IMG/VR virus record: IMGVR_UViG_3300032046_000026
Coordinates: 1-60,660 of that record
Length of the DNA stretch: 60,660 nt
Strand: one strand, 5' to 3'
From: a virus
Shown here: piece after piece, positions 2,241 to 46,401 of the stretch
How positions within the stretch are numbered: position 1 is the first letter of the stretch
Layout: each line of letters opens with the position of its first letter
The notes under the pieces: model-generated
The model's database searches: none
The model's input: only the letters and a program-made list of their open reading frames with translations
Told to the model about the DNA's origin: nothing
Made by a program: the position numbers and the translations under genes

Positions 2241-2730
2241 TGTTGCCGCCGGCTGCCACCAGCCGGTTGAGCGGCGCTTCCTCCTCGTACTCCGTGCCCA
2301 CGCCGCAATCGTAGACGGCCACGAATTCAGTCCGCGGATAGGCCCAGCGCAGGGCCAGCAGCGTTTCGCCGCTGCCCGTGGGCACCATGTAGGGGCCTTG
2401 GCCGAGATCGCCCACTTCCTCCCGCAGCGCCGTGGCCAGCTGGGCCATAAGGGGCAGGGGCAGGTGGCCAGGCGTGGCGTCAAACAGGTCGGGCCAGGCG
2501 CGATGAATTTCCTCTAGCGTCCACCACTTGCCTGGCTGCAGCGGGCCGCCAGGCGACACCTCGATCACATAGAGGCCGCCGTTGAGGCCCACCCACGACC
2601 GCAGGGCGCGGGCCGCGTTGCCGCAGCTGAAAATGACGGCGCCGCGATAGCCGCCGCTGACGACGTGCCGGCCAATGATCGCGCTGCGGATTTCCTTACG
2701 GCGGGGGATAGGCAGCGGTTCCGCCTGCAT
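2218..2730 (-). CDS. Conserved phage protein, possible PLP-lyase-like fold (uncertain)
   Basis: 170 residues from the ATG preceded by GGAGG with 9-nt spacing; a longer start at 2760 has no such site. Recognisable patches are VIFSCGNAARALR near the N-terminus and MVPTGSGETLLALRWAYP near residue 125. The latter recalls glycine-rich phosphate-binding loops of pyridoxal-phosphate lyases, but no lysine-centred motif is clear, so function is left open. It overlaps the ParB-methyltransferase gene by 35 nt and was probably co-expressed with it. Confidence 0.7.
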   Translation of the reverse strand: MQAEPLPIPRRKEIRSAIIGRHVVSGGYRGAVIFSCGNAARALRSWVGLNGGLYVIEVSPGGPLQPGKWWTLEEIHRAWPDLFDATPGHLPLPLMAQLATALREEVGDLGQGPYMVPTGSGETLLALRWAYPRTEFVAVYDCGVGTEYEEEAPLNRLVAAGGNIMRQAGQ

Positions 2731-4165
2731 CACCTTGCGCCTCCACGTCGCCTGCCTCAATGGTGTCGGGGAAGTTGGCCGGTATCGCCTGCAGTTCGCC
2801 CTTGAAGAACACCAGCACGTTTTGGTGGCCCTTGCCCAGCTTGCGGTGGTGGGTGAACTGGCTGCTCACGCGGATCGGCAGGCTGCCCACGGGCGTGATG
2901 AAGGTGGCCTCGTTGTAGTAGTGCAGGCCCAGGGCGACGAAACCGGCCATGTTGTCGCCCACGAAGTTGCGGTAGGCGCCGGCCTTGTCGCGTATCTCGC
3001 CCACCTTGACGACGACGAAGCGGTTATCGCGCAGCCGCGCCACCGCCTGGGCGAAGACGCGCCAGTAGAAGGCCATGAACTCGGGGTAGGTGGGGAGGGC
3101 GCTGGCGTCCGCCTGGCTGTAGATTTCCAGATCGTAGTAGGGCGGGCTGGTGAAAATCAGGTCGTACTGCGCGCCGGCGGGCAGCAGCCCGTCCAGCTGC
3201 TCGGCGTCGCCGAATATCCACTGGGGCACCAGGTGCAGGGCGTCGGCCTGGGCAACGTTCGCCTCTACCTGCTCGGGCCTGATCTCGATGCCGGTGTACT
3301 GATAGCCCAGGTATTCGGCCACGATCCCCTTGGTGCTTTCGCCGGCGAAGGGATCGAGCACGGCGCCACCAGGTGGACAGAACCACCGGCAGGCCAACTC
3401 GGCCAGCACGGGGTCAAAGATGCTGCTGCCGCTGCCCGTCCAGCCCGTGTCGCCTGGCTGGTAGCTGCCCCAGTTGGCGCGATCCACCGACTTGCTGATC
3501 ATATCGCCGCGCCGGCCAGCGGCAGGGTCAAATGGTTTCCGCAGTTTGGGATTTGATCCAGCCTGCCGGCGACTGGCGGCGCCGCCAAAGCCAACAAGGT
3601 CGCTGGCGCGGCCTTCTTGCGGCGCCACGCCCAGGGCCAACCAGGCCCGCTTGCGATCCTGCCAGTAGCCTTGGCGCGCGTCCAGAACCGAGAAGGGCGG
3701 CACAATGAACCGCTCGGTTAGCTTTCGCCGGCCCTCGCTTGCCGTCATGTGCCCCGTGCCGGCCAGCAGGGCGATCTCGTCGTCGGTGAAGCCGGTAAGG
3801 CTTAGGTCGCCGCCGGCCAGGCGGATTTCCTCCTGGTGCAGCGCCAACTCGGCTTCGTTCCAGCGGCCGGTGATCCGGTTGAGGGCTTCGTTCAGCACCA
3901 TGGCGTCAACCTTGCTGACGTTGACGTACACCACGGGGATCTCCGTCATGCCCATGGCCACGGCGGCTTCCACCCGCTGGTGCCCGCCGATGATGCGCTT
4001 GTCCTGGGCGCGCACCACGATGGGGTCAACAAAGCCCCACCTGTCGAGGGCGCGCTGCAGCGCCTCCATTTCCGCCGGCGGCATAATGCGCGGGTTGCGT
4101 GCGGCCGGTTTCAGGCTGGCGGGGTCGACGTAGCGAATCTCAAGGGGCTTCTTGAGCGTGGGCAT
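2696..4165 (-). CDS. ParB-domain / DNA methyltransferase fusion
   Basis: 489 residues with two parts. Residues ~10-105 form a ParB/Srx-like domain (NPRIMPP, then IIGGHQRVEAA). The C-terminal two thirds are an S-adenosylmethionine-dependent DNA methyltransferase: motif I LDPFAGES near 270 and catalytic motif IV TSPPYY near 337. SPPY favours N4-cytosine modification, although N6-adenine is possible. Such fusions are common in phages and may protect phage DNA from restriction. ATG 4165 follows GGTGGAG; it overlaps the upstream gene by 26 nt, so the two are translated together. Confidence 0.88.
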   Translation of the reverse strand: MPTLKKPLEIRYVDPASLKPAARNPRIMPPAEMEALQRALDRWGFVDPIVVRAQDKRIIGGHQRVEAAVAMGMTEIPVVYVNVSKVDAMVLNEALNRITGRWNEAELALHQEEIRLAGGDLSLTGFTDDEIALLAGTGHMTASEGRRKLTERFIVPPFSVLDARQGYWQDRKRAWLALGVAPQEGRASDLVGFGGAASRRQAGSNPKLRKPFDPAAGRRGDMISKSVDRANWGSYQPGDTGWTGSGSSIFDPVLAELACRWFCPPGGAVLDPFAGESTKGIVAEYLGYQYTGIEIRPEQVEANVAQADALHLVPQWIFGDAEQLDGLLPAGAQYDLIFTSPPYYDLEIYSQADASALPTYPEFMAFYWRVFAQAVARLRDNRFVVVKVGEIRDKAGAYRNFVGDNMAGFVALGLHYYNEATFITPVGSLPIRVSSQFTHHRKLGKGHQNVLVFFKGELQAIPANFPDTIEAGDVEAQGDAGGTAAYPPP

Positions 4166-4637
4166 ACTCCACCCGATCAGCAACGTGGTTGGCCAGGCTG
4201 GTGGACGACCAGGGGCCGTGCCGGCCCAGGGCCATGGTGTAGATGTGCAGCCGCACCGCCTCGGCCGTCTCGGGCACCGCCTCGTCGGCGCGGCAGAAGT
4301 AGCGATCCGGCCTGATCCTGCGCATCACGTCGCAAAGCGAATCCGCCGTGTCAAGCCCGACAATGCGCCACACGGCGCGCAGGCCCTCGATGATGGAGCA
4401 CCGATCAGCCCAGGGCAGGAACGGCCGGCCTTCGCCTTTGAGCACGGCCACACGGGCGTCTGTATCGACACCCACCACCAGCAGGTCGCAGAGCGACGCC
4501 GCCTGCTCAAGCATGGCCACGTGGCCAGGGTGCAGCAGATCGTAGCACCCGTTCGTGATCCCGATGGTGGGCTTGGTGTGCAGGCGCGCCTTCACCACGT
4601 CCTGGGCCAGTTCTGCCAGGCTAACCACCAGCGACAT
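4140..4637 (-). CDS. hldE (C-domain-like): HldE C-domain-like sugar-1-phosphate nucleotidyltransferase
   Basis: 165 residues matching the cytidylyltransferase-like fold. The signature TNGCYDLLHPGH at residues 28-39 carries the HxGH nucleotide-binding histidines and is closest to the heptose-1-phosphate adenylyltransferase half of HldE (TNGxFDxLHxGH). LKGEGRPF and the late SSTSLAN segment fit HldE better than CDP-glycerol enzymes. In bacteria this step makes ADP-glycero-manno-heptose. The partner kinase domain is the adjacent gene, which overlaps by 17 nt, so the phage has a split HldE. Exact substrate is inferred. Confidence 0.8.
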   Translation of the reverse strand: MSLVVSLAELAQDVVKARLHTKPTIGITNGCYDLLHPGHVAMLEQAASLCDLLVVGVDTDARVAVLKGEGRPFLPWADRCSIIEGLRAVWRIVGLDTADSLCDVMRRIRPDRYFCRADEAVPETAEAVRLHIYTMALGRHGPWSSTSLANHVADRVEYAHAQEAP

Positions 4638-5451
4638 CGATCTCCTCCCAGGGCACCGTGGCCCCGAATTCAGGCTTGCGGATGCGCAGGCCAGCCGCCC
4701 AGGCGGCCAGGTGCAGCGCGTCCTGCCGGCTCAACTTGGCGGCGGCCAGGCCAGCGGCCACAAAGGTGGCCAGGAACACGTCGCCCGCGCCGCTGGTGTT
4801 GAGGATCGGCCGGCTGTCCAGCAGGGCCGGCACGCGCACCACACCCGCATCGACCACCAGGACAGCGCCGGCAGGGCCGCCGGTGATCAGCAGGGGCACG
4901 GCGTCAAGGCCAAGGCCGGCCTGCAACGCGAACAGTTCCGCGTCGCTGGGTTCGGCCAGCAGATCAAGGCCCAGGTCGATCCCGCTCACCTTCACCACGT
5001 CGAAACCCTCCCAGCCGGTGGCGGGGATCACGCGGCTGTCGCCCACCAGGCGGCAGCCAAGGCCGCGCAGGTAGGCCATGAGGGCCACGGTGGGCGGTGC
5101 CCCCTGGTAGTCCACGAACACCGCCGCTGCCGGCGCTGTCAGTTGCGGCCACAGGCCGGCGTAGCGTTCGGGCCAGGGATCGTCAACGCGGAACACCTGC
5201 CGTCCGTCCACGACGTAGCGGCTTTTCGACGTTTCAGACAGCGCCACCAGGTGGTTGGGCACGCCCAGGGCATGCAGCTGGTTGGCCACGTAGGCGGCGC
5301 AGCCTGGGAACCGCGTGTGTTTGCCGGAAACAAAAACCGGCAGGGGCACCTCCCGCGATAGGCGGGCGGCCCCTGCCGGTATGATCACGTCGTCGCATAC
5401 GTCGCCGATAACGAGGACTGTTCCGCAACCCTCCCAGGGCGGTGCCTTCAT
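4621..5451 (-). CDS. hldE (kinase-domain-like): HldE N-domain-like sugar kinase (PfkB family)
   Basis: 276 residues of the ribokinase/PfkB fold. The N-terminus VIGDVCDDVI followed by ARLSREVPLPV parallels GDVxLDxY and SRISPEAPVPV of heptose-7-phosphate kinase, and PGCAAYVANQLHALG matches the PGGAANVAxNxxxLG motif. The anion hole and catalytic base are in NTSGAGDVF near residues 216-224. It is about 40 residues shorter than the usual HldE kinase domain. With the next gene it would phosphorylate and nucleotide-activate heptose. It starts at an ATGA overlap with the XRE gene and contains a strong hairpin near its 5' end. Confidence 0.8.
   Translation of the reverse strand: MKAPPWEGCGTVLVIGDVCDDVIIPAGAARLSREVPLPVFVSGKHTRFPGCAAYVANQLHALGVPNHLVALSETSKSRYVVDGRQVFRVDDPWPERYAGLWPQLTAPAAAVFVDYQGAPPTVALMAYLRGLGCRLVGDSRVIPATGWEGFDVVKVSGIDLGLDLLAEPSDAELFALQAGLGLDAVPLLITGGPAGAVLVVDAGVVRVPALLDSRPILNTSGAGDVFLATFVAAGLAAAKLSRQDALHLAAWAAGLRIRKPEFGATVPWEEIDVAGG
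5336..5380. repeat. Perfect long hairpin inside the kinase gene
   Basis: The 12-bp arms ACCGGCAGGGGC and GCCCCTGCCGGT are perfect, with a second stem CCCGC/GCGGG nested inside. It falls in codons ~24-38 of the HldE-like kinase gene, soon after its start. Such a stem could slow transcription or translation. Confidence 0.7.
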
Positions 5452-5681
5452 GCGGCCTTGCCTTTCCCCCTACGCCGCCCGTCACGCTGCCGGTAGCGGT
5501 GCGCCAGGCCCACCAGGGCCAGGGCCAGCATTTCGGGGTGCTGGATCGGTTGCAGGCCGTTTTCCCAACGGCTCATGGTATTGGGGCCAAGGCCCAGGTC
5601 GTCGGAAACAACGGCCTGGCTCTTGCCCCAGCGCCGGCGGAAGTCGCGCAGCATTTCAGGGGTCGCCACGGGTTGTTTCAT
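5448..5681 (-). CDS. XRE-family HTH regulator, candidate master regulator
   Basis: 77 residues, almost entirely a lambda-repressor-like helix-turn-helix (~10-60), with WGKSQAVVSDDLGLGPNTMS as the helix-turn-helix and SRWENG as the usual tail of the recognition region. The tail is strongly basic (RRRGKGK). ATG 5681 follows AGGAGG at 6 nt. Its own promoter carries CCGTGGCGG, the core of the palindrome found in six other phage promoters, so autoregulation and control of those promoters is a reasonable inference. No integrase was found, so it need not be a lysogeny repressor. Confidence 0.8.
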   Translation of the reverse strand: MKQPVATPEMLRDFRRRWGKSQAVVSDDLGLGPNTMSRWENGLQPIQHPEMLALALVGLAHRYRQRDGRRRGKGKAA

Positions 5682-5701
5682 GCCCACCCTCCTGGCGTCC
5701 C

Positions 5702-20203: not shown

Positions 20204-20964
20204 CAGTTCGGCAGGCCGGCCAGGGCGCGGAGGTACTTCATTTCCATGTAGGCTTGTTCGGCCAGGGCAGGATCGCCGGCCAGGATCATGCCGGCCCAGC
20301 GTAGGGCCAGGTCGACGCGGGTGGGGTTTGCGGGCAGCGGAATGGGCATCGTCTCCTCCAATAGCAGGTGCCGGTTGAACATGTCCAGGTCAACGTAGAC
20401 GCCGCCGATCTCGGTGCCGCCGTTGAACTGCTCGCCCACCAGCTGGGCCAGCGTCCAGCCGCCGTAAGGCAGGCCGGCGAAGTCGATATCGGGGTCTTGA
20501 TCCCACAGGGCATTGATCAGCAGGCAGTCGGTGAACGTGGTGGGGTTGCCCATCAGATCGACCCAGGCGTGATAATTGGTGTAGATCGCCCGCCGCTTGG
20601 CGCCGTACTCGAGCGCGGCCAGCAGATCGACGGCCTGGCGCACCGTGCACCAGGGGATGCCAGGCAGTTCCACGTCCACCACCACCAGCACCAGCTGCGC
20701 CCACAGGTCGTCGGGCACGCCGGCGCGCCCCTGCTGCACGTGCCAGGCGCCGTCGTGGTTGCCCGTGACGGAGATATAGCCCATCGGGATCAAGCCGGCC
20801 GCGATTGCGATCCGCAGGTTGTCGATCCGGTTGGCGGGCTGGTCGGCGCCCGTCCACAGGCATTGCCACCAAACCAGTTCGCCGGCGGCCCGCAGATCGG
20901 CCGCCGCTTCGGCCGTCAGCCGCGTGTAGCTGCCGTCGACGCCTGGTATCCAATCAGGGGGCAT
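20203..20964 (-). CDS. lys: GH25-like endolysin
   Basis: 253 residues of a TIM-barrel lysozyme type: WIPGVDGSY at the start, AGELVWWQCLWTG, GYISVTGNHDGAWHV, VVVDVELPGIP with the acidic pair, then IYTNYHAWVDLMGN. This order fits glycoside hydrolase family 25 muramidases that cut peptidoglycan at release. No cell-wall-binding repeat is visible; the last ~60 residues are helical. ATG follows GGAGG. It lies downstream of two holin-like genes. Confidence 0.75.
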   Translation of the reverse strand: MPPDWIPGVDGSYTRLTAEAAADLRAAGELVWWQCLWTGADQPANRIDNLRIAIAAGLIPMGYISVTGNHDGAWHVQQGRAGVPDDLWAQLVLVVVDVELPGIPWCTVRQAVDLLAALEYGAKRRAIYTNYHAWVDLMGNPTTFTDCLLINALWDQDPDIDFAGLPYGGWTLAQLVGEQFNGGTEIGGVYVDLDMFNRHLLLEETMPIPLPANPTRVDLALRWAGMILAGDPALAEQAYMEMKYLRALAGLPN

Positions 20965-21322
20965 GGGCCACCTCCGGCAGCTGGCCACGTGGCAGGGTGC
21001 GGGGCAGGATTGTGCCGCCATCGGCGACAAAGAACGTGGCCGTCAGCTTGATCATATCCGCCTCGTCAAAGTCCCTGCAGCTGAACACGTGCACGGCGCC
21101 GTAGGGCGCCGGTTCGTCCTTGGGGTTCAGGTGCACCGCGATGTGGGATTCGGCGATCAGCTGCAGCAGCATCACCTTGCCGCCAAACCGGCCGCCCATC
21201 TGGTGGATCGCCTGCAGGCCGGTGAGATCCACGGCGGCGGCGATAAAGGCCCGCGCCCGTGTAACCGTCCAGCAGCGGGCCGCGTGTTCAGGGGGCGTGG
21301 TGAATTCGAGGGCCAGGAACAT
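20954..21322 (-). CDS. speD-like: S-adenosylmethionine decarboxylase-like protein (SpeD family)
   Basis: 122 residues, the size of bacterial class 1b SpeD. LIAESHIAVH at 55-64 keeps the Glu58/Ser59 autocleavage site that yields the pyruvoyl group, His64 aligns with the processing His, and Cys82 in VFSCRDFD with the catalytic Cys. It would decarboxylate AdoMet for spermidine synthesis, although some phage SpeD homologs are known to have become arginine or ornithine decarboxylases. It sits between holin-like and endolysin genes, so it is expressed late. Polyamines could help DNA packing. Confidence 0.82.
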   Translation of the reverse strand: MFLALEFTTPPEHAARCWTVTRARAFIAAAVDLTGLQAIHQMGGRFGGKVMLLQLIAESHIAVHLNPKDEPAPYGAVHVFSCRDFDEADMIKLTATFFVADGGTILPRTLPRGQLPEVAHAP

Positions 21323-21995: not shown

Positions 21996-22604
21996 TTATC
22001 GGGGGGCCAGGCCGATGCGCATGCGCCGCACCGCGTGGCGCCGCAGCTGGCGGGCCTCGTCGGGTTCCGTGCCGAACATGGCGGCTATGTTCTCGGGCGT
22101 CTCGCCGGCGTAGTCGCGCATCAACAGCACCGCCCGCTCGCTGGCCGGCAGGGCGGCAATCGTGGCTTCCAGATCGGCCGCCAGTTCTATGGCCCGCCAG
22201 GGATCGATCCGCTGGCCGTCAACGAGCAGCGGTTCGCTCTCGAAGCCTGGGCCAAATTCGTCAACCTCGCCGCTGCGGCCTTCTTCATGGTGGCCACGGT
22301 GCAACTCGGGGAAGGCCACCTCGATGGGGCGGGCCTGGCCGTTGCGGCCCAGGCGCCCGTGCCGGCGCCGGAGATCTATCGCGTGGCCGCGCAGGCGCAG
22401 CCAGAGGAACGTGGTGAACTTGCCCACCTGGGGGTTGTAGTCGCGGGCGGCGATCACGGCCTGCTCTCTCAGTTCCGCCAGCACGTCTTCGCGGGCCAGG
22501 TAGCCCACGCCATCATGGAAGATGCCCGCGCGGTGGGCAGCTGCTTCGATCATGCCGATCACTTCGGGGCTTTGGAGAAGGGCCGCAGCTGCAGGCGCAT
22601 TCAT
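21996..22604 (-). CDS. Phage-encoded sigma-70 family factor
   Basis: 202 residues. Region 2 is seen in DYNPQVGKFTTFLWLRLRGH then IDLRRRHGRLG (~55-90), matching the core-binding and -10 recognition helices. Region 4 is ALPASERAVLLMRDYAGETP with a following HTH (~148-200). A Gly/Glu-rich linker replaces region 3, as in ECF-like or short group-3 factors. It may redirect host RNA polymerase to late phage promoters. ATG 22604 is 7 nt after a TACAAT box and has no ribosome site, so its message is probably leaderless. Confidence 0.88.
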   Translation of the reverse strand: MNAPAAAALLQSPEVIGMIEAAAHRAGIFHDGVGYLAREDVLAELREQAVIAARDYNPQVGKFTTFLWLRLRGHAIDLRRRHGRLGRNGQARPIEVAFPELHRGHHEEGRSGEVDEFGPGFESEPLLVDGQRIDPWRAIELAADLEATIAALPASERAVLLMRDYAGETPENIAAMFGTEPDEARQLRRHAVRRMRIGLAPR

Positions 22605-22611
22605 GGCCCGA

Positions 22612-22641
22612 ATTGTAGCGCCGTTCGCGGCCCCGTGGCAA
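22612..22641 (-). promoter_or_regulatory. Leaderless promoter of the sigma factor gene
   Basis: Minus strand: TTGCCA, 18-nt spacer, TACAAT. The start codon is 7 nt downstream. It has no TAACCG palindrome, so the sigma gene may be under host control from the outset. Confidence 0.65.
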
Positions 22642-22651
22642 GCGACGCCGG

Positions 22652-23206
22652 CTACAGGGACAGCATGACGCGGGGCGCGTTGCCCACCAGGAGGGCACCG
22701 CCGGCGGTGAAGGGGTTCGGCAGGGCGCCGTAAGCTTGGGCCACGCTCCAACCGACATGATTAACCACATCGAGCCCCGTTGGGCTACCCAGGAAGCGCA
22801 GGGCACTGTTGATAGAACAGGCGCGGACGGTCGGCGTGTCGCTGGCCAGCCCCACCAGCCAATACCAGCCTGGCGTCAACGTCTGCGCGATCACGATCGT
22901 CTTAAGGCCGGTAGCGGCCGCCGAGACGTTGCCGGCGTCCAATACCAGGGCACCAGGCACGCCGCTACTGTCCCGATAGATGCCTAACTGGATGCTCGCG
23001 CCAGCCTTAAGCGTTGAGACCTCGATGGAAATGCTGGTGTAGGGCGTCGTCGTGGGCACGAAGAAGGGCATCGCGTAGAGGATGTTTGCTGTCAACGCTA
23101 GCGTGGTTGTTACCGTCTCGCAAAGGTTGCCGTAGAACCGCCCGCCGGCATGGGGCGGCCAGGCGGGGGCTAGTTGCAGGGCATCGGTTCGGTTCCAGCC
23201 TGTCAT
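22652..23206 (-). CDS. Tail appendage / receptor-binding candidate (184 aa)
   Basis: A Ser/Thr/Gly-rich beta protein (VPTTTPYTSISIEVSTLKAG, LTPGWYWLVGLASDTP) resembling phage tail-tip jelly-roll domains. It shares the theme of a displaced short N-terminal region plus a beta sandwich with the next upstream gene, suggesting they are diverged paralogs. It is the last structural gene before the sigma factor. Composition is less GC-rich than its neighbours. Confidence 0.6.
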   Translation of the reverse strand: MTGWNRTDALQLAPAWPPHAGGRFYGNLCETVTTTLALTANILYAMPFFVPTTTPYTSISIEVSTLKAGASIQLGIYRDSSGVPGALVLDAGNVSAAATGLKTIVIAQTLTPGWYWLVGLASDTPTVRACSINSALRFLGSPTGLDVVNHVGWSVAQAYGALPNPFTAGGALLVGNAPRVMLSL

Positions 23207-37570: not shown

Positions 37571-38452
37571 TCACAGCAGGAAGGGTTCGTCGTATTGTAG
37601 CAGATCGCCGGCCTGGTGCGCCAGGATCACCTGGCCCTCCTGCACCTCTTGCTTCGACAGCGCAATCGGCTCGCGCCCCACCACGGCAATGGCGCCAGGC
37701 TCAAAGGCCACGGCCAGGCCGGCCTTGCGCAGCTGCAGGCAGTAGTACAGATCGGCAAAGGGCCGGCTGCCGAAGGGGTCGCTGGGGAAAGGGCCAAGGG
37801 TGCGGAACAGGCTGCGGCGCGTGGCCATGAACTGCACCGGCACGCCCTGCAAATCCTGGCGGGCGTATATCTTTGGGTTGTCGGGTGCCCAGCCGGCGAA
37901 GCGGGCGTAGGGCTGCATCATGACGCCGAGCACGTAGCCGGCGGCGCGCATGGCGGGGTCGGGGAAGCCGGCCGGCACAACCTCACCCTGCCATATGCCC
38001 AGGCCGCCCACGGCGCCGATTGTCTCCGGTTCAATGGCGGCCGCCATGGCCGCCCATGCGCCCTCGGCCAGCACCGCGTCGCTGTCGATGAACAGGATCA
38101 GCGGGGCCTGCCCGTGCCCAGCTGCACGGTTGCGGGCATCCCAGCGGTCGCGGCCGCTGCGGTCAAGGCGCAGGTCTTCCTCGCGGGCGATCCGCACCAG
38201 TTCGCCGTGGCGCGCCGCCGCCTGATCGGGGATGGCGTCAGCCAGGGTGATCGTAGCGTCGGCCGGCAGATCGCGCCGCAGGGCCGCCAGGCAGGCGCCC
38301 AGGCGGTCGATGCTGGTGAAGGCCGTCACCACGGCGTCCACGCTGCCACGTAGCGGCAGGGCCACGGTCATGTGGGCCGGTGGGCGGCCAGCCGCCCGCT
38401 CCTCTGCCCTACGCTGTGCCCGCCGGCTGCTCGGGCTTTTCCGTGATCGCAT
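37571..38452 (-). CDS. GT2-like glycosyltransferase
   Basis: 293 residues with a GT-A fold: VVTAFTSIDRLGACLAALRR at the start and a DxD nucleotide-sugar site in LILFIDSDAVLAEGAW near 120. RYFADLYYCLQLRKAGLAV-type region near the end is the acceptor side. ATG follows AGGAGG and overlaps the upstream GT4 gene by 44 nt. It transfers a sugar from an activated donor; donor and acceptor unknown. Confidence 0.8.
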   Translation of the reverse strand: MRSRKSPSSRRAQRRAEERAAGRPPAHMTVALPLRGSVDAVVTAFTSIDRLGACLAALRRDLPADATITLADAIPDQAAARHGELVRIAREEDLRLDRSGRDRWDARNRAAGHGQAPLILFIDSDAVLAEGAWAAMAAAIEPETIGAVGGLGIWQGEVVPAGFPDPAMRAAGYVLGVMMQPYARFAGWAPDNPKIYARQDLQGVPVQFMATRRSLFRTLGPFPSDPFGSRPFADLYYCLQLRKAGLAVAFEPGAIAVVGREPIALSKQEVQEGQVILAHQAGDLLQYDEPFLL

Positions 38453-39620
38453 TCAGCGCCTCCTCTACAACATCAAGGGCCTTATCCCACGTGCGGCTGC
38501 GCGCCCAGGCCAGGGCAGCGTCAACCCGCGCCTGGGCACCTTCCGGCTCCACGCGGATCGACTGGATCATGGTGGCAGCCTGCACCGGCGACGCAAAGCG
38601 GCGCGTCTGGTTGCCGAAGGGATCGATGTAGCTGTACTCGGCCGGCACCAGGTAGCCGCGCCCATCGGCCAGGTTTTCGGCCATGCCGCCGGCGTCGGTG
38701 GCCACCACGGGCAGCGCGCAGGCCATTGCCTCCATCACCGGCAGGCAAAGGCCCTCGGCCTTCGACAGCTGCAGGTAGCAGTCGGCGCCCCAGTAGATCT
38801 CGCGCAGCTGGGCGTCGGTCATGCCGGCCTGCTTTTCGAACTGGAAGAACTGCGTCTGGTTGTGCAGCTGGAAGTAGTCGTTAAGGTTCCAGGTCTGGAA
38901 GCCAATGTGGGTGGGCCGGCGTTTGGTCTTCACTACCAGCCGCACGTCGTCATAGATCGGGCCGTGCAGGATCGGCCGCCGCTTGCCGGCCGGCGGCCAG
39001 GCAAAGCGGTGCCCCAGCAGCAGGGCCACGGTTGCCCACATGGCCGGCAGGTTCTTGCGCTCGTGGTTGTCGCACACCGAGAAAACGATGAACTTATCTT
39101 CCCAGTCTTCGCGCTTGCGCACCGCCGCCCGTTCGTCCGGTGTGGGCGGCCGCCAGAACTCGGTGTCGATCCCCACGGGCAGGTAGCGCGCGGCCAGGCC
39201 ACAGTCCTGGCACAGCTTGGTCGCCCACTCGGTTTCCACCAGGGCGGCGCCCATGCGGTCGATAACCGTTGTCCATTCGCTGGGGTGGATCAGGGGATCA
39301 CTTTCCAGCGGGAAAATGCCGGCGTAGGGCAGGCCGAACTCCATCACCTGCGCCCAGTTGCAATGGTCAACGATGTCGCCGATCCCCAGCAGCACATCGG
39401 GCGCATAGGCGGTTTTGATCATCATCACGTGGCGCAGAAGGCTTCCTGGCTCGCTGGGGCAGGCGTGCACGGGCAGGCGGTGCTCCTGCCCCTGGTAGTT
39501 CAGCGCACAAACCACGACGTCATGGCCGCGCCGGCCCAGGCCGCCGGCAACCTGCTGGGCGATGGTGGTGTAGCCGCTGCCGCCGGCGACGTTGAACTCG
39601 CTGATGCAGGCGATCTTCAT
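38409..39620 (-). CDS. GT4-like glycosyltransferase
   Basis: 403 residues of the GT-B fold. FNVAGGSGYTTIAQQVAGGL opens the N-terminal domain, LPVGIDTEFW lies between the domains, and SKAEGLCLPVMEAMACALPV carries the EX7E donor site near 310. It should retain the anomeric configuration. ATG follows AAGGGGG. Confidence 0.88.
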   Translation of the reverse strand: MKIACISEFNVAGGSGYTTIAQQVAGGLGRRGHDVVVCALNYQGQEHRLPVHACPSEPGSLLRHVMMIKTAYAPDVLLGIGDIVDHCNWAQVMEFGLPYAGIFPLESDPLIHPSEWTTVIDRMGAALVETEWATKLCQDCGLAARYLPVGIDTEFWRPPTPDERAAVRKREDWEDKFIVFSVCDNHERKNLPAMWATVALLLGHRFAWPPAGKRRPILHGPIYDDVRLVVKTKRRPTHIGFQTWNLNDYFQLHNQTQFFQFEKQAGMTDAQLREIYWGADCYLQLSKAEGLCLPVMEAMACALPVVATDAGGMAENLADGRGYLVPAEYSYIDPFGNQTRRFASPVQAATMIQSIRVEPEGAQARVDAALAWARSRTWDKALDVVEEALNAITEKPEQPAGTA

Positions 39621-39779
39621 GGTGCCCCCTTATTTTTCAGGCCCTCTTGCGCATAAGGGCCGACGTTGCTACGCTGCTCAGCGCGGCTCCGGCCGCGATG
39701 AAGGACGGACGGACATCCCCCCACTATTACTGAGACATCAGTAGATCTCTTAAGACGATCTGCTATAGGAAAGTGGGTG
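39621..39779. other. AT-richer intergenic stretch in the sugar cassette
   Basis: No convincing gene. It contains the 13-bp inverted repeat described separately, the short stem TACTGA-N4-TCAGTA and AGATC-N9-GATCT. Composition is clearly lower in GC than the surroundings, as expected at a recent insertion edge. Confidence 0.5.
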
Positions 39780-39800
39780 CTACTCATTCCGTCCTTCATC
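39697..39800. repeat. 13-bp inverted repeat flanking a 78-bp spacer
   Basis: GATGAAGGACGGA (39697-39709) and its exact complement at 39788-39800. The second arm covers the last codons of the 59-aa protein gene beside the HNH endonuclease. It may mark the edge of a mobile insertion or form a long-range mRNA stem. Confidence 0.6.
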
Positions 39801-39959
39801 CCGCGCCGCGTTTTTCTGCTCACGATCCTTAGCATTTGGCGGTGGCCGCCTGGGCAGCACGCCACCCTCCCTGGCAGCCTCTTCAACCGCCAGCAAGCCG
39901 CGCTCGACAAGATAGGTTGCCCGCGCTGCTTGCCTGGCCACAAAGTCCCGCAGACTCAT
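39780..39959 (-). CDS. Small basic protein next to HNH gene (59 aa)
   Basis: MSLRDFVARQAARATYLVER then a disordered Pro/Arg/Lys tail. The ATG overlaps the HNH stop codon (ATGA), so both are translated together. Function unknown; may belong to the same inserted unit. Confidence 0.55.
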   Translation of the reverse strand: MSLRDFVARQAARATYLVERGLLAVEEAAREGGVLPRRPPPNAKDREQKNAARDEGRNE

Positions 39960-40459
39960 TCGTCTAACCATGCCCATCTCTCGCGCTTCTGAATCTGCTG
40001 AACCGTGCGGTGCGTCACACCGTACTGGCGCGCCAGGGCACGCTGCCCAGGCTTTCCGGCGGCCGCCCTGATCACTCGCACGTCGGCTTCGCTCAGCTTG
40101 TTGCAGGAATGGCGTTTGCCTCTGGCGGAATGGCGCAGGCCCAAGACTAGCGCATGACGCATATTCACCGAAGCGGTCACCTTTTCAAGATTGGCAAGGC
40201 GGTTGTCGCTTTTCACACCGTTACGATGGTTCGATTCCTGCCCACCTGCAAAGGGGCCAGTGAAGGCAATTATCACCAGCCGGTGCACCAGTTCGCGCTT
40301 CGACCGCCCTTCGAACTGCAACTGAACGCGAAGGTATCCCCCGCCAGCCAGTTGTGGGCGCAAAAGGCGGCGGGTGCGTGTATTGACGACGCGGCCAGCG
40401 TCCGAAACTTCGTAGGCTTCTTCCCAGCCTACCACCGGCCGCCATGTTTCGTCGGTCAT
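39956..40459 (-). CDS. NUMOD4-HNH homing endonuclease
   Basis: 167 residues: NUMOD4 (WRPVVGWEEAYEVSDAGRV), HNH core (ELVHRLVIIAF, ESNHRNGVKSDNRLANLE), and a C-terminal HTH (RALARQYGVTHRTVQQI). This order is typical of mobile free-standing phage endonucleases. It sits between glycosyltransferase genes, suggesting a recent insertion into the cassette. Confidence 0.92.
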   Translation of the reverse strand: MTDETWRPVVGWEEAYEVSDAGRVVNTRTRRLLRPQLAGGGYLRVQLQFEGRSKRELVHRLVIIAFTGPFAGGQESNHRNGVKSDNRLANLEKVTASVNMRHALVLGLRHSARGKRHSCNKLSEADVRVIRAAAGKPGQRALARQYGVTHRTVQQIQKRERWAWLDE

Positions 40460-41325
40460 TGCAGGCCCCTTCGATCAAGTTCCAGCGCCAACAGTTCGCG
40501 CTTGTCTGCCCACTTTTCGATCAGCAGGCGCTCGTGATCGGCGGCGTGGTTCAGGGCCACGGGGCCGATGTTGGCGCGCGCGGCCTGCCAATCCTTCTGG
40601 CTGCGGTGCACGGCAACGGCCGGCCCGCAGCGTATCCGGTAGCCGGCGGCCTTGATCTGCAGCTGCAGATCGGTTTCCTCATGCCAATGCGGGTTGAACC
40701 GCTCGTCGTACAGGAACACCGGCCAGCCGTCGAGGCCGCGCAGGTTGCGCCAGGCCCAGCAGTAGCCCATCACCAGGTCGGTGTAGTCGCCTGGCGCCGG
40801 CCGGCGGTCGTCGAGGAAGTTGGGCGCCACCCAGGGGCCGGCGAGCAGGCCCGCCCAGTTGAGATAAAAGCCCTCCTGGCCAGCCCCGCCGATCTTGGGA
40901 TCGCTGAATGGCTGCAGCAGCACCTTATCCCAGGCGGGGCCAACCTCAACGTCGTCGTCCACCTGCATGATGAACTGCCCGCGCGCTATCCTGATCCCGT
41001 GATTGCGGACGCAGACGCCCTCGTTGGTCGGCACGTGCATGCTGGTGTAGCGGCGGTGTTCCTCGAACACCCTGGGGTGCAGTTCTTGGATCGCCATGCT
41101 GGTGCCGTCGTCGCTGCCGTTGTCGATCACGATCAGCTCATAATCGGCCACCGGCGTGGCGGTTTTCTGCCATATGCGGTCGATGCAGGCCAGCACCGTG
41201 TCGCGCCGATTGTGCGTCAGCAACACAACGCTGAACAGCAGGTCTTGCGGCGCGGGTTGCCGGCGGCCGCCGCCGCTGGTTTCGCCGTGTTCTATCGGGC
41301 CAACGTGTCCCTGTGCCTGCGCCAT
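40456..41325 (-). CDS. GT2-like glycosyltransferase
   Basis: 289 residues with FSVVLLTHNRRDTVLACIDR, YELIVIDNGSDDGT and a DDD metal site in FIMQVDDDVEVGP near 130, then HEETDLQLQIKAAGY near 225. ATG 41325 follows GGAGGAG. An inverting GT-A enzyme; it overlaps the upstream methyltransferase gene by 34 nt. Confidence 0.88.
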   Translation of the reverse strand: MAQAQGHVGPIEHGETSGGGRRQPAPQDLLFSVVLLTHNRRDTVLACIDRIWQKTATPVADYELIVIDNGSDDGTSMAIQELHPRVFEEHRRYTSMHVPTNEGVCVRNHGIRIARGQFIMQVDDDVEVGPAWDKVLLQPFSDPKIGGAGQEGFYLNWAGLLAGPWVAPNFLDDRRPAPGDYTDLVMGYCWAWRNLRGLDGWPVFLYDERFNPHWHEETDLQLQIKAAGYRIRCGPAVAVHRSQKDWQAARANIGPVALNHAADHERLLIEKWADKRELLALELDRRGLQ

Positions 41326-41849
41326 GCGTTTTGCTCCTCCCAGGCCGCCAGGTGGGCGGCCGTCTTGATCGGCCGCAGCAGCACCCACAGGTTGCCGCGT
41401 TCGCGCCACGCCTGGTCGACAATGGCAAAGTGGTGGGTGATCCCGTAGTCGCTGAACGCTTCCACAAACCCAGGCTCAAAGTAGAGGAAACTGGTTTCGC
41501 TGAACGTGTGGCAATGGGTGGGATCGCCGTGCGCGCCGGCGCTGGCGTAGTAGGGCACCACGATCTCAACCCAGGCATCGGCCTGGCAGATGCGCCAGAT
41601 TTCGGTCATGGTGGCGATCAGATCGTGCAGGTGTTCCAGCGTTTGGTGGGCGATCACCGCCAGGCCGCATTCGTCCTCAAGGGGCCAGGGCCGCACGTTC
41701 AGGTCGTGCACCAGGTCAACGCCTTCCAGCGCAACGCGGTCGACGCCAAAGTAGCCTTCGTTCTTGTGGAGGCCGCAGCCCAGCTCGATCTGCCCTGGCG
41801 CTGCCCGCGTAGGGTAGGGGATCGGTGCCGGTTCTTCGGGATTGGTCAC
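41292..41849 (-). CDS. SAM methyltransferase-like protein (185 aa)
   Basis: IELGCGLHKNEGYFGVD is a SAM-binding motif I; HQTLEHLHD and PYYASAGAHGDPTHCH follow, as in class I methyltransferases of polysaccharide clusters. The GTG start overlaps the upstream stop (GTGA) after GGGGAGG. Probable sugar or peptide O-methylation. Confidence 0.75.
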   Translation of the reverse strand: MTNPEEPAPIPYPTRAAPGQIELGCGLHKNEGYFGVDRVALEGVDLVHDLNVRPWPLEDECGLAVIAHQTLEHLHDLIATMTEIWRICQADAWVEIVVPYYASAGAHGDPTHCHTFSETSFLYFEPGFVEAFSDYGITHHFAIVDQAWRERGNLWVLLRPIKTAAHLAAWEEQNAWRRHRDTLAR

Positions 41850-42427
41850 GGTTTCCTCCCCAGGGCCATGAACTGTGGCGGCCCCATGTGCATGCGCAGC
41901 TTTGTGCGCTCGATCACCAGGCCCGCCTGGTGCAACCATGCCGGCACATCAGTGACCAGCACGCGGCGGTGCAGGGCATCGGGCGGCACCTCGGCATGCA
42001 CCCAAAGCAGCGCCTTCCCGCCAGGGCGCAGGGCCAGGCCGGCGGCCGCCACCAGGCCGGCGGGATCGTCGCAATGGTCGAGAACGTTCAGCAGCAGGGC
42101 CGTGTCGAACGGCCGTGGGTGAGACAGGCATTGATCGACCTCGATCATGGTTTTGTCGTATAACAGACCGGCCTCTCGGTACTGGTGGAACAGCGGATCG
42201 ACGCACCAGACTAAGTCGGGCGGCGGATCGCCGATGTAGGCGGCCGACACAGGGCCGCTGCCGAAGTCGATCACGCGCCCCAGGTTGCCGAACTCGGCAA
42301 AGAAGAAGTCCAGATAGCGATAACCGTAGAGGGCCAGGATGCGCGCCTGGCCGTGGGGCTGCGCCAGCCAGGCGCGCCACCAGTCCAGTTCGCCCTGCTG
42401 CATGGCCGTGTAGTCGGGTTCGTTCAT
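41846..42427 (-). CDS. SAM methyltransferase-like protein (193 aa)
   Basis: VIDFGSGPVSAAYIGDPPPD is motif I; LLLNVLDHCDDPAGLVAAAG is motif IV; LRPGGKALLWVH follows. The ending GPPQFMALGRKP is typical of short class I enzymes. Acceptor unknown. Confidence 0.75.
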   Translation of the reverse strand: MNEPDYTAMQQGELDWWRAWLAQPHGQARILALYGYRYLDFFFAEFGNLGRVIDFGSGPVSAAYIGDPPPDLVWCVDPLFHQYREAGLLYDKTMIEVDQCLSHPRPFDTALLLNVLDHCDDPAGLVAAAGLALRPGGKALLWVHAEVPPDALHRRVLVTDVPAWLHQAGLVIERTKLRMHMGPPQFMALGRKP

Positions 42428-42966
42428 GCCGGTTTCCTTCCGCGCCCGAACACCCCCACGGGGTATTGCCAGTCAGCCTCGGTGGGCGGCGCGTTGCGCG
42501 GCCGCCCGCAACCCTCGGTTTCAATCACCACGTCGAACAGGCCCGCCCGCGACAGCAGGTAGGCCAAGCCGCTGGGCGTGGTGCGCCAGTAGTCGCCGCT
42601 TTGGCCCTTGTCGATCTCGGCGTCGTGCAGGGGGAAGGCGAAACACCAGCTGATGATCAGTAGGCCCCCAGGCAGCAACGCCCTGGCCATGGTGTCAATG
42701 GCCGCCCAGGGTTCCTTCACGTGCTCCAACGTCTCGCAGCACACCGCCGTGCGGAACTTGCCATCGAACTGGTTGCCGGCCTTGAGAATGTCCAGCACCA
42801 GGTCGACGCCTGGCCCTTCCGCCATGTCCACGCCGGTGTAGCCGGCCTGGGGGAAAAGGGGCCGCACCGTGCCGTTAACATTGCGGCTGCCCACTTCGAG
42901 CACGGGCACCTGGGCGCCCTGGGCCTTGATCACGGCAGCCACCCAATCAGAGACTTCGCGGCGCAT
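42424..42966 (-). CDS. SAM methyltransferase-like protein (180 aa)
   Basis: VLEVGSRNVNGTVRPLFPQA and YTGVDMAEGPGVDLVLD form the SAM site, CCETLEHVKEP the motif-IV region, and ALLPGGLLIISW the following strand. ATG follows AGGAG and lies ~75 nt after a TAGACT box. Confidence 0.78.
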   Translation of the reverse strand: MRREVSDWVAAVIKAQGAQVPVLEVGSRNVNGTVRPLFPQAGYTGVDMAEGPGVDLVLDILKAGNQFDGKFRTAVCCETLEHVKEPWAAIDTMARALLPGGLLIISWCFAFPLHDAEIDKGQSGDYWRTTPSGLAYLLSRAGLFDVVIETEGCGRPRNAPPTEADWQYPVGVFGRGRKPA

Positions 42967-43034
42967 GGTATCTAACTCCTGTCCTGGGGTGCCACGGCGC
43001 CCGACAGCGCGTTTTGCCCCCTGGGGCCAGTGGT

Positions 43035-43080
43035 AGTCTAGGCCCCTCAGCGTCAAGGCCACGCCCCTGCCCGCGTGGCC
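43035..43080 (-). terminator. Hairpin and TAGACT box between methyltransferase genes
   Basis: A perfect 8-bp stem GGCCACGC-N8-GCGTGGCC (43057-43080) follows the 43087 stop; TTGACG comes next, then GGGGCCTAGACT. The hairpin could end transcription and the TAGACT box restart it, but the spacing to TTGACG (10 nt) is too short for a normal -35. Confidence 0.45.
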
Positions 43081-43086
43081 CGAATT

Positions 43087-43944
43087 CTAAGGCGCAGTCG
43101 TTGTCACCCTGGCCCGTTTCCACGCCCCGATCCCAAAGTGGCCATCGGGCGGGATCACCGGCTCGAAACCCACGTTGGCGAGCACACTGTCAAGCGATTG
43201 CTGCAGGTCGCGGCTTTCGGGCAGGTGGGTGGGGAACGCCTTGAAACTGTCGTGGGTCAGGATCAGCACCCCATCCGGCGCCAGGCAGGCCACGAACTGC
43301 TGCAGCAGGCCCACCGGATCGGGCACGTGCTCAACGACGTCAAGGGCACACAGGGCACCCCAGGGCTGTGGCCCCAGGCTGCCGGTCGGGTGCAGGGCGT
43401 CGTCTGGCGTCTCCACCACCACGATGGTGCCGGCCGGCCAGGGGTTGGGCAACGGCGCAGCGAGCAGGCCCTCGCGGAGGAACCGCCAGTCGGCGAAATT
43501 GGCCACCTGGCCAAGATCGACGTAGGCCACCTGGTAGCCCAGGCGCGCCAGGAAGATCGCCTGCTGGCCGATCCCGCCCCCGTAGTCAAGGATCGGGCCA
43601 TGGCCGCCCAGGTGTGTCATGTATTGGTGCACGATGTTGGCGCGGTGATCGCCGGCCCACAGTTCGGGCGGCGGGCCTGCCCCGCGCAGCAGTTCAAAGA
43701 TCATGCCGAAATTCTCAACGTAGAACTGGCCAATGCGTGTGCGGTCAAGCAGGGCGGGGGGCGTCAGGTCGTGCCAATCGAGCGCCGGCCCTTCCTGCAG
43801 CACCACGTCCTGCCATTCCAGTTCAAGCAGCTGGGCGGCGTCCACGCCCACGGCAATGTATTCGTAGAAATCCTCCTCGGGCAGCCCAGGCCAATATGCC
43901 GAGCACAGTTCCCAGGCGTATTCAGTCGCCGGATCGGGGTTCAT
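43087..43944 (-). CDS. SAM methyltransferase-like protein (285 aa)
   Basis: A ~100-residue N-terminal helical region precedes the core: ILDYGGGIGQQAIFLARLGY (motif I), YVDLGQVANF, CALDVVEHVPDP and LAPDGVLILTHDSF. ATG 43944 follows AAAGGCGG. The helical extension may recognise the acceptor. Confidence 0.8.
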   Translation of the reverse strand: MNPDPATEYAWELCSAYWPGLPEEDFYEYIAVGVDAAQLLELEWQDVVLQEGPALDWHDLTPPALLDRTRIGQFYVENFGMIFELLRGAGPPPELWAGDHRANIVHQYMTHLGGHGPILDYGGGIGQQAIFLARLGYQVAYVDLGQVANFADWRFLREGLLAAPLPNPWPAGTIVVVETPDDALHPTGSLGPQPWGALCALDVVEHVPDPVGLLQQFVACLAPDGVLILTHDSFKAFPTHLPESRDLQQSLDSVLANVGFEPVIPPDGHFGIGAWKRARVTTTAP

Positions 43945-44140
43945 AGACACCGCCTTTCTGCAGTTCCTTCTGCCGGCGCAGTTGATCGCGCCAGCGTTTG
44001 GGCAGTCGCCGGCGCTCGGCGCGGGGCAGCTGGCCAAAGGTGCAACCAGCGCACATGATCTGATCGCTGCCCAAGCCCTTGGCGCTGAACTCCTCGGGCA
44101 GCACCGCGCCGCATTCGCAGCAGGTGAACACCTTGGTCAA
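43922..44140 (-). CDS. Zinc-ribbon protein (72 aa)
   Basis: FTCCECGAVLP and QIMCAGCTFG form a CxxC...CxxC ribbon, with an Arg/Lys-rich tail. The TTG start overlaps the previous stop (TTGA). Function unknown; nucleic-acid binding is plausible. Confidence 0.55.
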   Translation of the reverse strand: MTKVFTCCECGAVLPEEFSAKGLGSDQIMCAGCTFGQLPRAERRRLPKRWRDQLRRQKELQKGGVYEPRSGD

Positions 44141-44400
44141 GGCGGCCACCGCACCCAGCCAGCCTTGGCCATCTGCTCCTGGTCGAGCGATCCCAGGCTG
44201 GTGCCGGCCGCCAGGCAAATGGCAAACACCTCCACACCGCCCTTGAATAGCAGGGCCTTCTGCAGCGCCGCCACGCCGTCGTATATCTCCCAGGTATCGT
44301 CTTGTGTGGTGCGGGCCACCAGCACGTCGCCGTCCTGCAGCCGCAACCGTTTCAGGGCGATTTCAAGGCCCTCGATGTTAACCGTGGCGGTGGGTGCCAT
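44137..44400 (-). CDS. Hypothetical protein (87 aa)
   Basis: MAPTATVNIEGLEIALKRLR and GDVLVARTTQDDTWEIYDGV suggest a small alpha/beta protein. No family recognised. The TAACCG-like stretch near its start is coding and not a promoter. Confidence 0.55.
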   Translation of the reverse strand: MAPTATVNIEGLEIALKRLRLQDGDVLVARTTQDDTWEIYDGVAALQKALLFKGGVEVFAICLAAGTSLGSLDQEQMAKAGWVRWPP

Positions 44401-44404
44401 GGCG

Positions 44405-44680
44405 TTAACGCGGCGGATCGGGCGCCCGTTGCGGTGCGTCGCGCGGGCCAGCTGGTGCCGCTGCCACCTGCTCGGCGTCCGGCGTGATGGCCTCGGCCTC
44501 GATCAGGGTCAGCTGGCCCTCATCGATCCACACGGCCTCAACCGGCACGCCCTTGTCCTTTTCGACCGCCTGGGCCTGCACCAGTATGCGGACGCAGCCG
44601 TTCAGGTAGGTGCACCGCGCCACCGCAATGCCTTCGTATTCCGTGATCTTGTCGACTACCTTATCGCCTGGGTTGATCAC
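44405..44680 (-). CDS. Small SH3-like phage protein (91 aa)
   Basis: INPGDKVVDKITEYEGIAVA and LNGCVRILVQ follow a pattern common in short phage proteins of unknown role, likely a KOW/SH3-like barrel. The GTG start overlaps the GT4 stop codon (GTGA) after AAGGAG. Confidence 0.65.
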   Translation of the reverse strand: MINPGDKVVDKITEYEGIAVARCTYLNGCVRILVQAQAVEKDKGVPVEAVWIDEGQLTLIEAEAITPDAEQVAAAPAGPRDAPQRAPDPPR

Positions 44681-45666
44681 CAGCGTTCTCCTTCCGCTGC
44701 TTGGCGCAGTAGCGCCTCTATCCGGTCGCCGGCCTTTGCCGGTGAAAAGGTGGCTTCCACGTGGCGCCGGCAGGCGGCGGGGTCGATCTCCAACCACCGC
44801 CGGCCCCGCAGGCCGTTAAGGAACTGGCCGGCGTCTGCCCACAGGAAGCCGGTTTCGCCGTGGACGATATATTCGGGGTTGGCGCCGTGATCGTAGGCGA
44901 ACACCGGCGTGCCGGCTGCCATGGCCTCAAGCATCACGGTGCCGGATGGTTCCTCCGGTTCCGATGTGAACATAAGGCAGCAGGCGCGGGCCAGCAGGGC
45001 CGCCTTGTCGGCGCCGCCCACTTCGCCCCTGATCACGACCTGGCCAGCGCGCATACGGGGCAGGATCTCCGCGTCAAAGTAGGCGGGGTCGTGGGCCGGC
45101 CCCGCGATGTCCAACACCAGGCCCGCCGTGCCGCAAAGGTCAGCCGCGTGGTGCACCCGTTTGTAGGGCATGATCCTGCCCAGGAATAGCGGCGGCCCGC
45201 GCTCTGCCATGGGGCCGCCCAGGCGGTAGGCGGCAGGATCGACGTTGATCAGGGCCACCATGGGGTCGGCAATGCCGTGCGACTGGCCATGGTGGCGCGA
45301 GCAGAAGACGGGGTTGCGGGCGTGCGCTGAAATCTTGGCCCAGCCGTGGCTCTGCGTCACCGCCGGCAGGCTGGGCCACCGCGCCTGGGCCAACTGATAG
45401 AGGCTGTGATCAAATAGCACGTCGGGGTGGGGCAGCCGCTCCATGTGGTCGACAATGGCCGTCTCGGTGTCGCGGGCGCCGCCCCGCATGGGAGCCACCG
45501 TCACCACCTCCACGCCGGCCACGGCCGATCCCTGCAGGCCGAACAGCGTCACGGCATGCCCGCGATCCCGCAGGCCGGCGGCCAGGTTGGCGACGACGCT
45601 CTCCAAGCCGCCCGTGCTGGCCGGCGGCGTGGGCAGGAAGGCAGACGATTGAAGCCAGATTCTCAT
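44677..45666 (-). CDS. GT4-like glycosyltransferase
   Basis: 329 residues, GT-B fold. FLPTPPASTGGLESVVANLA gives the loop for the acceptor, FLGRIMPYKRVHHAADL and SEPEEPSGTVMLEAMAAGTP carry the donor site with EX7E. ATG 45666 overlaps the previous stop (ATGA). Confidence 0.88.
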   Translation of the reverse strand: MRIWLQSSAFLPTPPASTGGLESVVANLAAGLRDRGHAVTLFGLQGSAVAGVEVVTVAPMRGGARDTETAIVDHMERLPHPDVLFDHSLYQLAQARWPSLPAVTQSHGWAKISAHARNPVFCSRHHGQSHGIADPMVALINVDPAAYRLGGPMAERGPPLFLGRIMPYKRVHHAADLCGTAGLVLDIAGPAHDPAYFDAEILPRMRAGQVVIRGEVGGADKAALLARACCLMFTSEPEEPSGTVMLEAMAAGTPVFAYDHGANPEYIVHGETGFLWADAGQFLNGLRGRRWLEIDPAACRRHVEATFSPAKAGDRIEALLRQAAEGERW

Positions 45667-45860
45667 GGTGTGCCCGTCCAAAGGGCCATGTCCAGCCTGG
45701 CGCGCAGTTGCAGCAGCGCAATGAATTCAGCCGCGTTGGCGACCGCCGCGCGGCAGGGCTGGCAAACCAGCAGGTCGGCCAAGCCGAAACGCGAGTAGAT
45801 TTCGCCCAGGGGCGCCAACTTGCGCCGGCGGTTGCCGCAGGCCGCGCACATCGGTTTCAT
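45663..45860 (-). CDS. Zinc-ribbon protein (65 aa)
   Basis: MCAACGNRRRKL and LLVCQPCRAAV give a CxxC...CxxC pair in a compact protein. ATGA overlaps link it to both neighbours. Confidence 0.6.
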   Translation of the reverse strand: MKPMCAACGNRRRKLAPLGEIYSRFGLADLLVCQPCRAAVANAAEFIALLQLRARLDMALWTGTP

Positions 45861-46165: not shown

Positions 46166-46401
46166 ATGGTGCCCTTTCGGTTGCCGTCAACATCTTCCCA
46201 GTAGCCCCTGCCCCAGCGCCAAGGCCGCCACCAACTGCCGCCGGTGCCGATCCACCGCAGGGCGACCAGGTTGAACCGGCTCTTGGGGCCGCCGCACCTG
46301 GGGCACACGCTCTCGTCGGTGAAGAAGTCGTTGCCTCGCCAGGGGGTGTCAACCACCTTGCCGCAGGGGCAGACCATGCGCTCCTTAAATGGGCCAGGCA
46401 T
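46162..46401 (-). CDS. Zinc-ribbon protein with Trp-rich tail (79 aa)
   Basis: VCPCGKVVDTPWRG and ESVCPRCGGPKSR form the ribbon; the tail has SWWRPWRWGRGYW. Linked to the next gene by a 4-nt overlap. Confidence 0.6.
   Translation of the reverse strand: MPGPFKERMVCPCGKVVDTPWRGNDFFTDESVCPRCGGPKSRFNLVALRWIGTGGSWWRPWRWGRGYWEDVDGNRKGTI

Follow-up and report, generated by a model that had tools for sequence, protein, structure and literature searches.

An HldE-descended kinase and nucleotidyltransferase pair that may activate a sugar for the glycosyltransferases of an undescribed phage group

The IMG/VR virus record IMGVR_UViG_3300032046_000026 (60,660 bp, GC 66%, genes nearly all on the minus strand), which was analyzed as a whole and is called the window below, carries a sugar kinase gene and a nucleotidyltransferase (NTase) gene that together resemble HldE (RfaE), the heptose 7-phosphate kinase/heptose 1-phosphate adenylyltransferase. 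We put at somewhat above even (roughly 0.55) the probability that this HldE-descended pair activates a sugar for glycosyltransferases encoded by the phage itself, and probably in a form other than canonical ADP-heptose. On this view, an enzyme derived from HldE has been divided between the two genes. The kinase would phosphorylate a sugar or a sugar phosphate at C1, and the NTase would couple the resulting sugar-1-phosphate to a nucleotide. One or more of the late glycosyltransferases of the phage would then consume the activated sugar, most likely to decorate virion proteins. Given how far the substrate sites have diverged from those of HldE, canonical ADP-D,D-heptose is an improbable product; more likely the pair uses another sugar, another nucleotide (possibly CTP), or both.

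Results

An earlier note on this DNA described a PfkB-type kinase gene and an NTase gene that are adjacent, overlap, and follow the domain order of HldE, kinase first. Both open reading frames (ORFs) were recovered exactly where it had placed them (Table 1), and a ribosome-binding-like GGAGGAG lies ahead of the NTase ATG. The relationship to HldE that it proposed also holds, as HldE is nearest both by profile and by predicted fold. Pfam assigns the kinase to PfkB (PF00294; 35.4 bits, cut-off 25.8) and the NTase to CTP_transf_like (PF01467; 48.5 bits, cut-off 21). Among NCBIfam models, HldE domain I (TIGR02198) ranks first for the kinase (56.2 bits, E 3e-15; next, a hexose kinase at ~24 bits) and HldE domain II (TIGR02199) for the NTase (85.5 bits, E 3e-24; next, CTP:glycerol-3-phosphate cytidylyltransferase [GCT] at ~34). 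Full-length AlphaFold (AF2) models are confident (predicted local distance difference test [pLDDT] 92.6 for the kinase and 92.7 for the NTase). The best PDB match of the kinase model is B. cenocepacia HldA (Foldseek E 7.5e-20; next family 6e-13), all seven HldA chains occupying the top ranks, and its VIA alignment to HldA gives Z 26.9 at 2.7 A over 266 residues, compared with Z 24.9 for ribokinase. For the NTase model the best match is B. pseudomallei HldC (VIA Z 19.8), followed by B. subtilis GCT (Z 17.8). Because the HldE models lead in NCBIfam and HldA and HldC lead among structures, HldE ancestry of both halves is well supported.

The pair has the same two folds as HldE, in the same order and with many common motifs. 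Unlike HldE, it consists of two genes with a 17-nt overlap, and the lysines of its kinase pocket are gone or replaced. Both proteins score below the curated HldE cut-offs (56.2 vs 345 bits for TIGR02198, 85.5 vs 181.5 bits for TIGR02199), and the NTase is also below that of the GCT model TIGR01518 (33.8 bits, cut-off 165.4). Separate kinase and NTase proteins are likewise found in Burkholderia, where HldA and HldC share 26% and 29% identity, respectively, with the window proteins over the structural alignments. Since several of the HldE features tested fail, we do not class the pair as HldE; we infer that it shares HldE's general chemistry.

The kinase keeps the GAGD Asp, GDxxxD, RxSxExP, a TKxR-type Lys/Arg, and RxD. 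In an alignment of 50 phage kinases, GAGD is invariant except at A222, and the invariant D224 is equivalent to D264 of E. coli HldE, which we take to be the catalytic Asp of GAGD in that enzyme. Elsewhere, the window kinase departs from 45 other phage HldE-like kinases at invariant or nearly invariant sites (Y23 to I, N54 to Y, S113 to V, K116 to Q, K140 to R, N156 to S, E159 to D, and D218 to N). Among the residues not kept are the Asn of GGAAN (Y54), the Lys of SDYxKG (VDYQG, without Lys), and the Lys of DPK (R140); the lysine changes could represent lost contacts to phosphorylated heptose. In E. coli HldE, the positions of S156 and D159 are taken by N195 and E198 (the NxxE motif), both reportedly important when mutated; the Asn is retained in three related phages and the Glu in one. 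An alignment in which the window kinase keeps NxxE as SDAE (residues 169-172) was rejected, as the kinase of one relative (L067) has NSGE where the window has SGID.

Substitutions at the N195/E198 equivalents and at the Asp of DxxGAGD, together with the loss of the NTase in one relative, would be expected if the pair were decaying or had turned non-enzymatic. Several observations make this reading very improbable. Both genes are under purifying selection, with ratios of nonsynonymous to synonymous substitution rates (dN/dS) between the window and its nearest relative, G001, of 0.37 for the kinase and 0.29 for the NTase, near those of other genes of the two phages (capsid 0.19, portal 0.18, SbcC-like 0.45). 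The reading frames, GAGD, and HxGH are intact, and the folds are predicted to be complete with high confidence.

In the NTase, residues 28-39 read TNGCYDLLHPGH. H36, G38, and H39 are invariant among 42 aligned phage NTases, and the HldE-type motif KGExRP is conserved in the pair. Docking to HldC identified five heptose-1-phosphate motifs, TNG, NSD, KG, EXTP, and KGG (PMC7993394). The window NTase keeps TNG (T28-N29-G30) and KG (K67-G68) and, unlike HldC, lacks the other heptose-site motifs, with DTD for NSD, EXTP lost (ADSL), and CRA for KGG. Fused viral HldE proteins retain the N of NSD (49/50), the T and P of EXTP (45/50 and 46/50), and the K of KGG (49/50), and bacterial HldE proteins do so at similar rates (67/68, 64/68, 63/68, and 67/68). 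In split phage NTases, D replaces N in 90/94 and L replaces P in 90/94, and the K of KGG is present in just 30/94; the NTases of the window's group have D, L, and C/Y/F-R-A/P at these sites.

A further difference concerns the residue five positions before the S(S/T)T motif. HldE and HldC have a hydrophobic residue five before STT, and Phe143 of HldC stacks on ATP (PMC7993394). In B. subtilis TagD, Arg113 is essential and lies in RTEGISTT, a motif said to occur only in cytidylyltransferases (PMC8262930). Arg stands at this position in 5/5 NTases of the window's group, 0/50 viral fused HldE proteins, and 1/68 bacterial HldE proteins; split phage NTases have Arg in 70/94 and Lys in 12/94. The spacing of Arg139 in the window NTase is that of the RTxGISTT Arg, and HPGH is also present. 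As TNG and KG are kept, the other heptose motifs are changed, and Arg occupies the RTxGISTT position, the NTase is a hybrid in motif terms, and use of CTP is a real possibility. TagD/GCT, the second-best fold, shares the Arg five before an STT-like motif; unlike TagD/GCT, the window NTase has KGExRP and sits beside a sugar kinase. One reading, to be held only tentatively, is that the pair has given up ADP-heptose in favor of a sugar that is activated with CDP or differs in some other way, and that this product feeds phage-encoded virion glycosylation. If so, a kinase without a pocket for phosphorylated heptose would make a GmhB-type phosphatase unnecessary, and the kinase and NTase would be sufficient if the sugar carries no second phosphate.

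The pair belongs to a group of five IMG/VR contigs, with the kinase in 5/5 and the NTase in 4/5. In G001 (51.5 kb), the two genes have ~80% identity to those of the window and overlap in the same way, and in G013, G015, and L025 (a partial contig) the identity of both is 38-42%. The capsid/tail module is common to all four full relatives, as is most of a glycosyltransferase cassette that lies between capsid and tail. In a scan of IMG/VR the portal protein was found in only six contigs besides the window, and none of the proteins compared with named phages (kinase, capsid, portal, GT4, and GT9) had a match. Sought as a prophage, the portal gene turned up in none of 400 Chloroflexota, 398 Pseudomonadota, and 346 Actinomycetota genomes, and 392 Planctomycetota genomes yielded nothing beyond one match to a 127-residue C-terminal fragment in one genome. 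The phage group is small and undescribed. It forms one clade in both the kinase tree (100/100) and the NTase tree (99), on long stems of 2.0 and 2.3 changes per column, outside the cyanophage-type split clade; neither tree fixes its position.

HldE-like genes also occur in other phages. We classified by profile 163 loci among the matches listed in two viral scans, a set that includes the window and three phage records, contains some loci that share a contig, and is not a census. They comprise 87 split NTase-then-kinase loci, 50 fused kinase-NTase genes, 12 split kinase-then-NTase loci, 11 with the NTase only, and 3 with the kinase only. Most HldE-like kinases of other viral contigs have an NTase fused or adjacent, and directly adjacent kinase-then-NTase pairs were seen, among the loci listed, in the window's group and at one other locus (L180). 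The "split HldE" of the earlier note is thus a real split pair but not a unique one, as many phages have split or fused HldE-like genes. The named cyanophages S-T4, S-CAM3, and Sf-CH5 have the reverse order, NTase then kinase, and in P-TIM68 the kinase comes first with an epimerase gene between it and the NTase; all four copies lie within sugar clusters with epimerases and/or glycosyltransferases. The cyanophage split pairs (S-T4, S-CAM3, Sf-CH5; PHROG 7878/8133) are, like the window pair, phage-borne and split, and their NTases share with it the change of NSD to DxD, the loss of EXTP, and a frequent Arg before S(S/T)T. They differ in that the NTase is mostly first, the kinase keeps all HldE pocket residues, and the pair lies within a larger sugar cluster that includes epimerases (identity to the window ~28% for the kinase and ~35% for the NTase). 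Across viral loci L024-L181, fused HldE proteins keep the heptose motifs, whereas split ones have mostly lost them, often with the cytidylyltransferase-type Arg.

The candidate users of the activated sugar are encoded in a late cassette (Table 1) that is mostly kept in the four full relatives, with two GT2, three GT4, several methyltransferases, and the GT9. The heptosyltransferase-like GT9 gene that had been noted there is real, weakly scored, and conserved in all four (54-86% identity). Linkage of the genes in related phages, which had been suggested as a check, is also found: kinase and GT9 occur together in all full-length members. A profile of the GT9 proteins of five group members has TibC as its top PDB match (22.8 bits), followed by lipopolysaccharide (LPS) heptosyltransferase II, and the NCBIfam matches, all heptosyltransferases, lie far below cut-offs (22.5 vs 200 bits for the BAHT protein heptosyltransferase model TIGR04414). 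Near the C terminus, CxxC, H, and C are conserved in all five sequences, at a place comparable to the four-Cys iron finger of TibC, an autotransporter protein heptosyltransferase (PMC4358343). The window GT9 thus resembles TibC/Aah (BAHT) in this metal-finger-like motif and in an equivalent of TibC Lys230; it differs in having a C2HC-like pattern for four Cys and in that Arg286 and Trp305 are not conserved.

The GT9 reading frame is open for 21 codons above its first ATG/GTG/TTG (48747-48812, minus strand), and a WGLGD motif is found there. The true start is probably further upstream, at a rare start codon, and the catalytic Asp should lie within WGLGD.

The GT9 resemblance is the best remaining argument for heptose, and a weak one. 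It would fit a split but functional HldE that produces ADP-D,D-heptose with the help of host GmhA and GmhB, with GT9 transferring heptose to a virion protein or a host glycan. That no families or folds are closer to the pair than those of HldA and HldC, that the GT9 profile matches are all users of ADP-heptose, with the protein O-heptosyltransferase TibC as best PDB match, that kinase and GT9 co-occur, and that GT9 keeps the Lys230 equivalent and the Cys/His finger all speak for it. We nevertheless find this reading doubtful: EXTP and KGG are gone, NSD is changed, Arg replaces the hydrophobic residue on the ATP side, the kinase pocket is altered, the sugar-binding Arg286 and Trp305 of TibC are not conserved in GT9, and no GmhA or HldD is present in the window.

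HldE requires GmhA upstream in the pathway and GmhB between its own two steps. Profile searches of the window gave no SIS_2 (GmhA) or Epimerase match, and no HAD family was found among the window ORFs scanned. These results agree with the earlier suggestion that GmhA, GmhB, and HldD come from the host, insofar as the sugar is heptose; in that case, their functions would have to be supplied by a Gram-negative host. In other HldE-carrying viral records, GmhA was found in 0/16 of split type or from the group and 1/30 of fused type, so phage HldE genes are seldom accompanied by the first pathway step. GT9 is above cut-off in 4/30 fused-HldE records and is therefore no regular partner elsewhere. 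We found no evidence for a role of the product in innate-immunity signaling, which had also been raised.

Three cyanophage genes labeled "phosphoheptose isomerase" (L015 10930-11277, L017 8086-8406, and L018 9979-10326) have no SIS domain, and two of them weakly resemble small HAD phosphatases (below cut-off). They could thus be GmhB-like rather than GmhA.

The kinase and NTase are part of an overlapping run consisting of a helix-turn-helix (HTH) gene, the kinase, the NTase, and a ParB/DNA methylase gene (Table 1), and the HTH gene adjoins the kinase in three relatives as well. This arrangement raises the possibility that the activated sugar modifies phage DNA, with the ParB-methylase fusion acting in the same unit, and in G016, which lacks the NTase, the kinase directly overlaps the ParB/methylase gene. 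We consider DNA modification a most unlikely role, given that the proteins scanned included no recognizable DNA glycosyltransferase, base hydroxylase, or deoxynucleotide kinase and that ParB/methylase fusions are common in phages without the pair.

Other genes of the window include an S-adenosylmethionine decarboxylase-like protein (20954-21322, minus strand; Pfam 29.8 bits, cut-off 25) kept in three related phages and a sigma-70-like protein (regions 2 and 4; 21996-22751, minus strand), which could be a phage sigma factor and is matched in each of the four relatives. Inside the cassette, a NUMOD4/HNH homing-endonuclease-like gene (39956-40459, minus strand) was identified by sequence and has no counterpart in the four relatives; one NUMOD4 and one HNH_3 match appear in the batch Pfam scan, which does not name the ORF.

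Table 1. Positions of the kinase and NTase genes, their motifs, and associated genes in the window
Feature	Position	Strand	Basis
PfkB/ribokinase-fold sugar kinase, HldE-domain-I-like, 276 aa	4621-5451	-	Pfam PF00294, NCBIfam TIGR02198, AF2 model
HIGH-motif NTase, HldE-domain-II-like, 165 aa	4140-4637	-	Pfam PF01467, NCBIfam TIGR02199, AF2 model
Overlap of NTase start with kinase 3′ end, 17 nt	4621-4637	-	Sequence
Kinase GAGD motif, residues 221-224, catalytic Asp224	4780-4791	-	Alignment of 50 phage kinases
NTase HPGH (HxGH) nucleotide-binding motif, residues 36-39	4521-4532	-	Alignment of 42 phage NTases
NTase RHGPWSST, Arg139 five residues before Ser	4200-4223	-	Alignment counts; motif PMC8262930
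Small HTH gene directly upstream; its stop overlaps kinase ATG (ATGA)	5448-5687	-	Pfam HTH_31, 34.1 bits
ParB-N + DNA methyltransferase, next downstream; start overlaps NTase end	2696-4165	-	Pfam, PHROG
Late cassette between capsid and tail genes: GT2, GT4, GT2, four methyltransferases, GT4, GT4, GT9	37571-48747	-	Pfam
GT9 (heptosyltransferase-family) glycosyltransferase	47821-48747	-	Pfam PF01075, 23.4 bits, cut-off 22
Major capsid protein adjoining cassette	49787-51328	-	phrog_212 major head protein, E 5e-5

Discussion

Several observations weigh against the view that the pair activates a sugar, probably other than canonical ADP-heptose, for glycosyltransferases of the phage. G016 (L067) has the cassette and the kinase (39% identity) but, over the 60.0 kb examined (of 60.6 kb), yielded no NTase. 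The heptose-1-phosphate motifs derive from docking, and altered motifs are no proof of altered specificity. The GT9 matches, all in heptosyltransferase families, favor heptose. Finally, the pair lies in an early/regulatory region at least 33 kb from the cassette (a smaller distance in the case of a circularly permuted genome), so the donor enzymes and the transferases are not co-transcribed.

The last point bears on another possibility, that the target of the activated sugar is the envelope of the infected host and not the virion, one conceivable benefit being that superinfecting phages are blocked. The separation of the pair from the late cassette and the presence of cyanophage versions in mixed sugar clusters would both be in keeping with this. 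As the glycosyltransferases lie between capsid and tail genes, where enzymes of virion modification would be expected, we think a role at the host envelope unlikely.

Although ancestry, fold, and gene order tie the pair to HldE, describing it as phage genes for nucleotide-activated heptose, as the earlier note did, exceeds the evidence. That the product is ADP-heptose was not borne out, in view of the wide margins by which the curated HldE cut-offs are missed, the changed NSD, EXTP, and KGG sites, the cytidylyltransferase-type Arg, and the altered kinase pocket.

Phages are known to carry glycosyltransferases, and the activated sugars are usually assumed to be host-derived. The window's phage group encodes activating enzymes as well as transferases. 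Comparison with other viral loci suggests a testable rule, that fused phage HldE proteins resemble real heptose enzymes and split ones do not. This rule would alter annotation, since the phage records examined mostly label split genes as ADP-heptose or heptose kinase genes. If the pair has indeed switched to another activated sugar, the route would be a nucleotide-sugar pathway not yet described.

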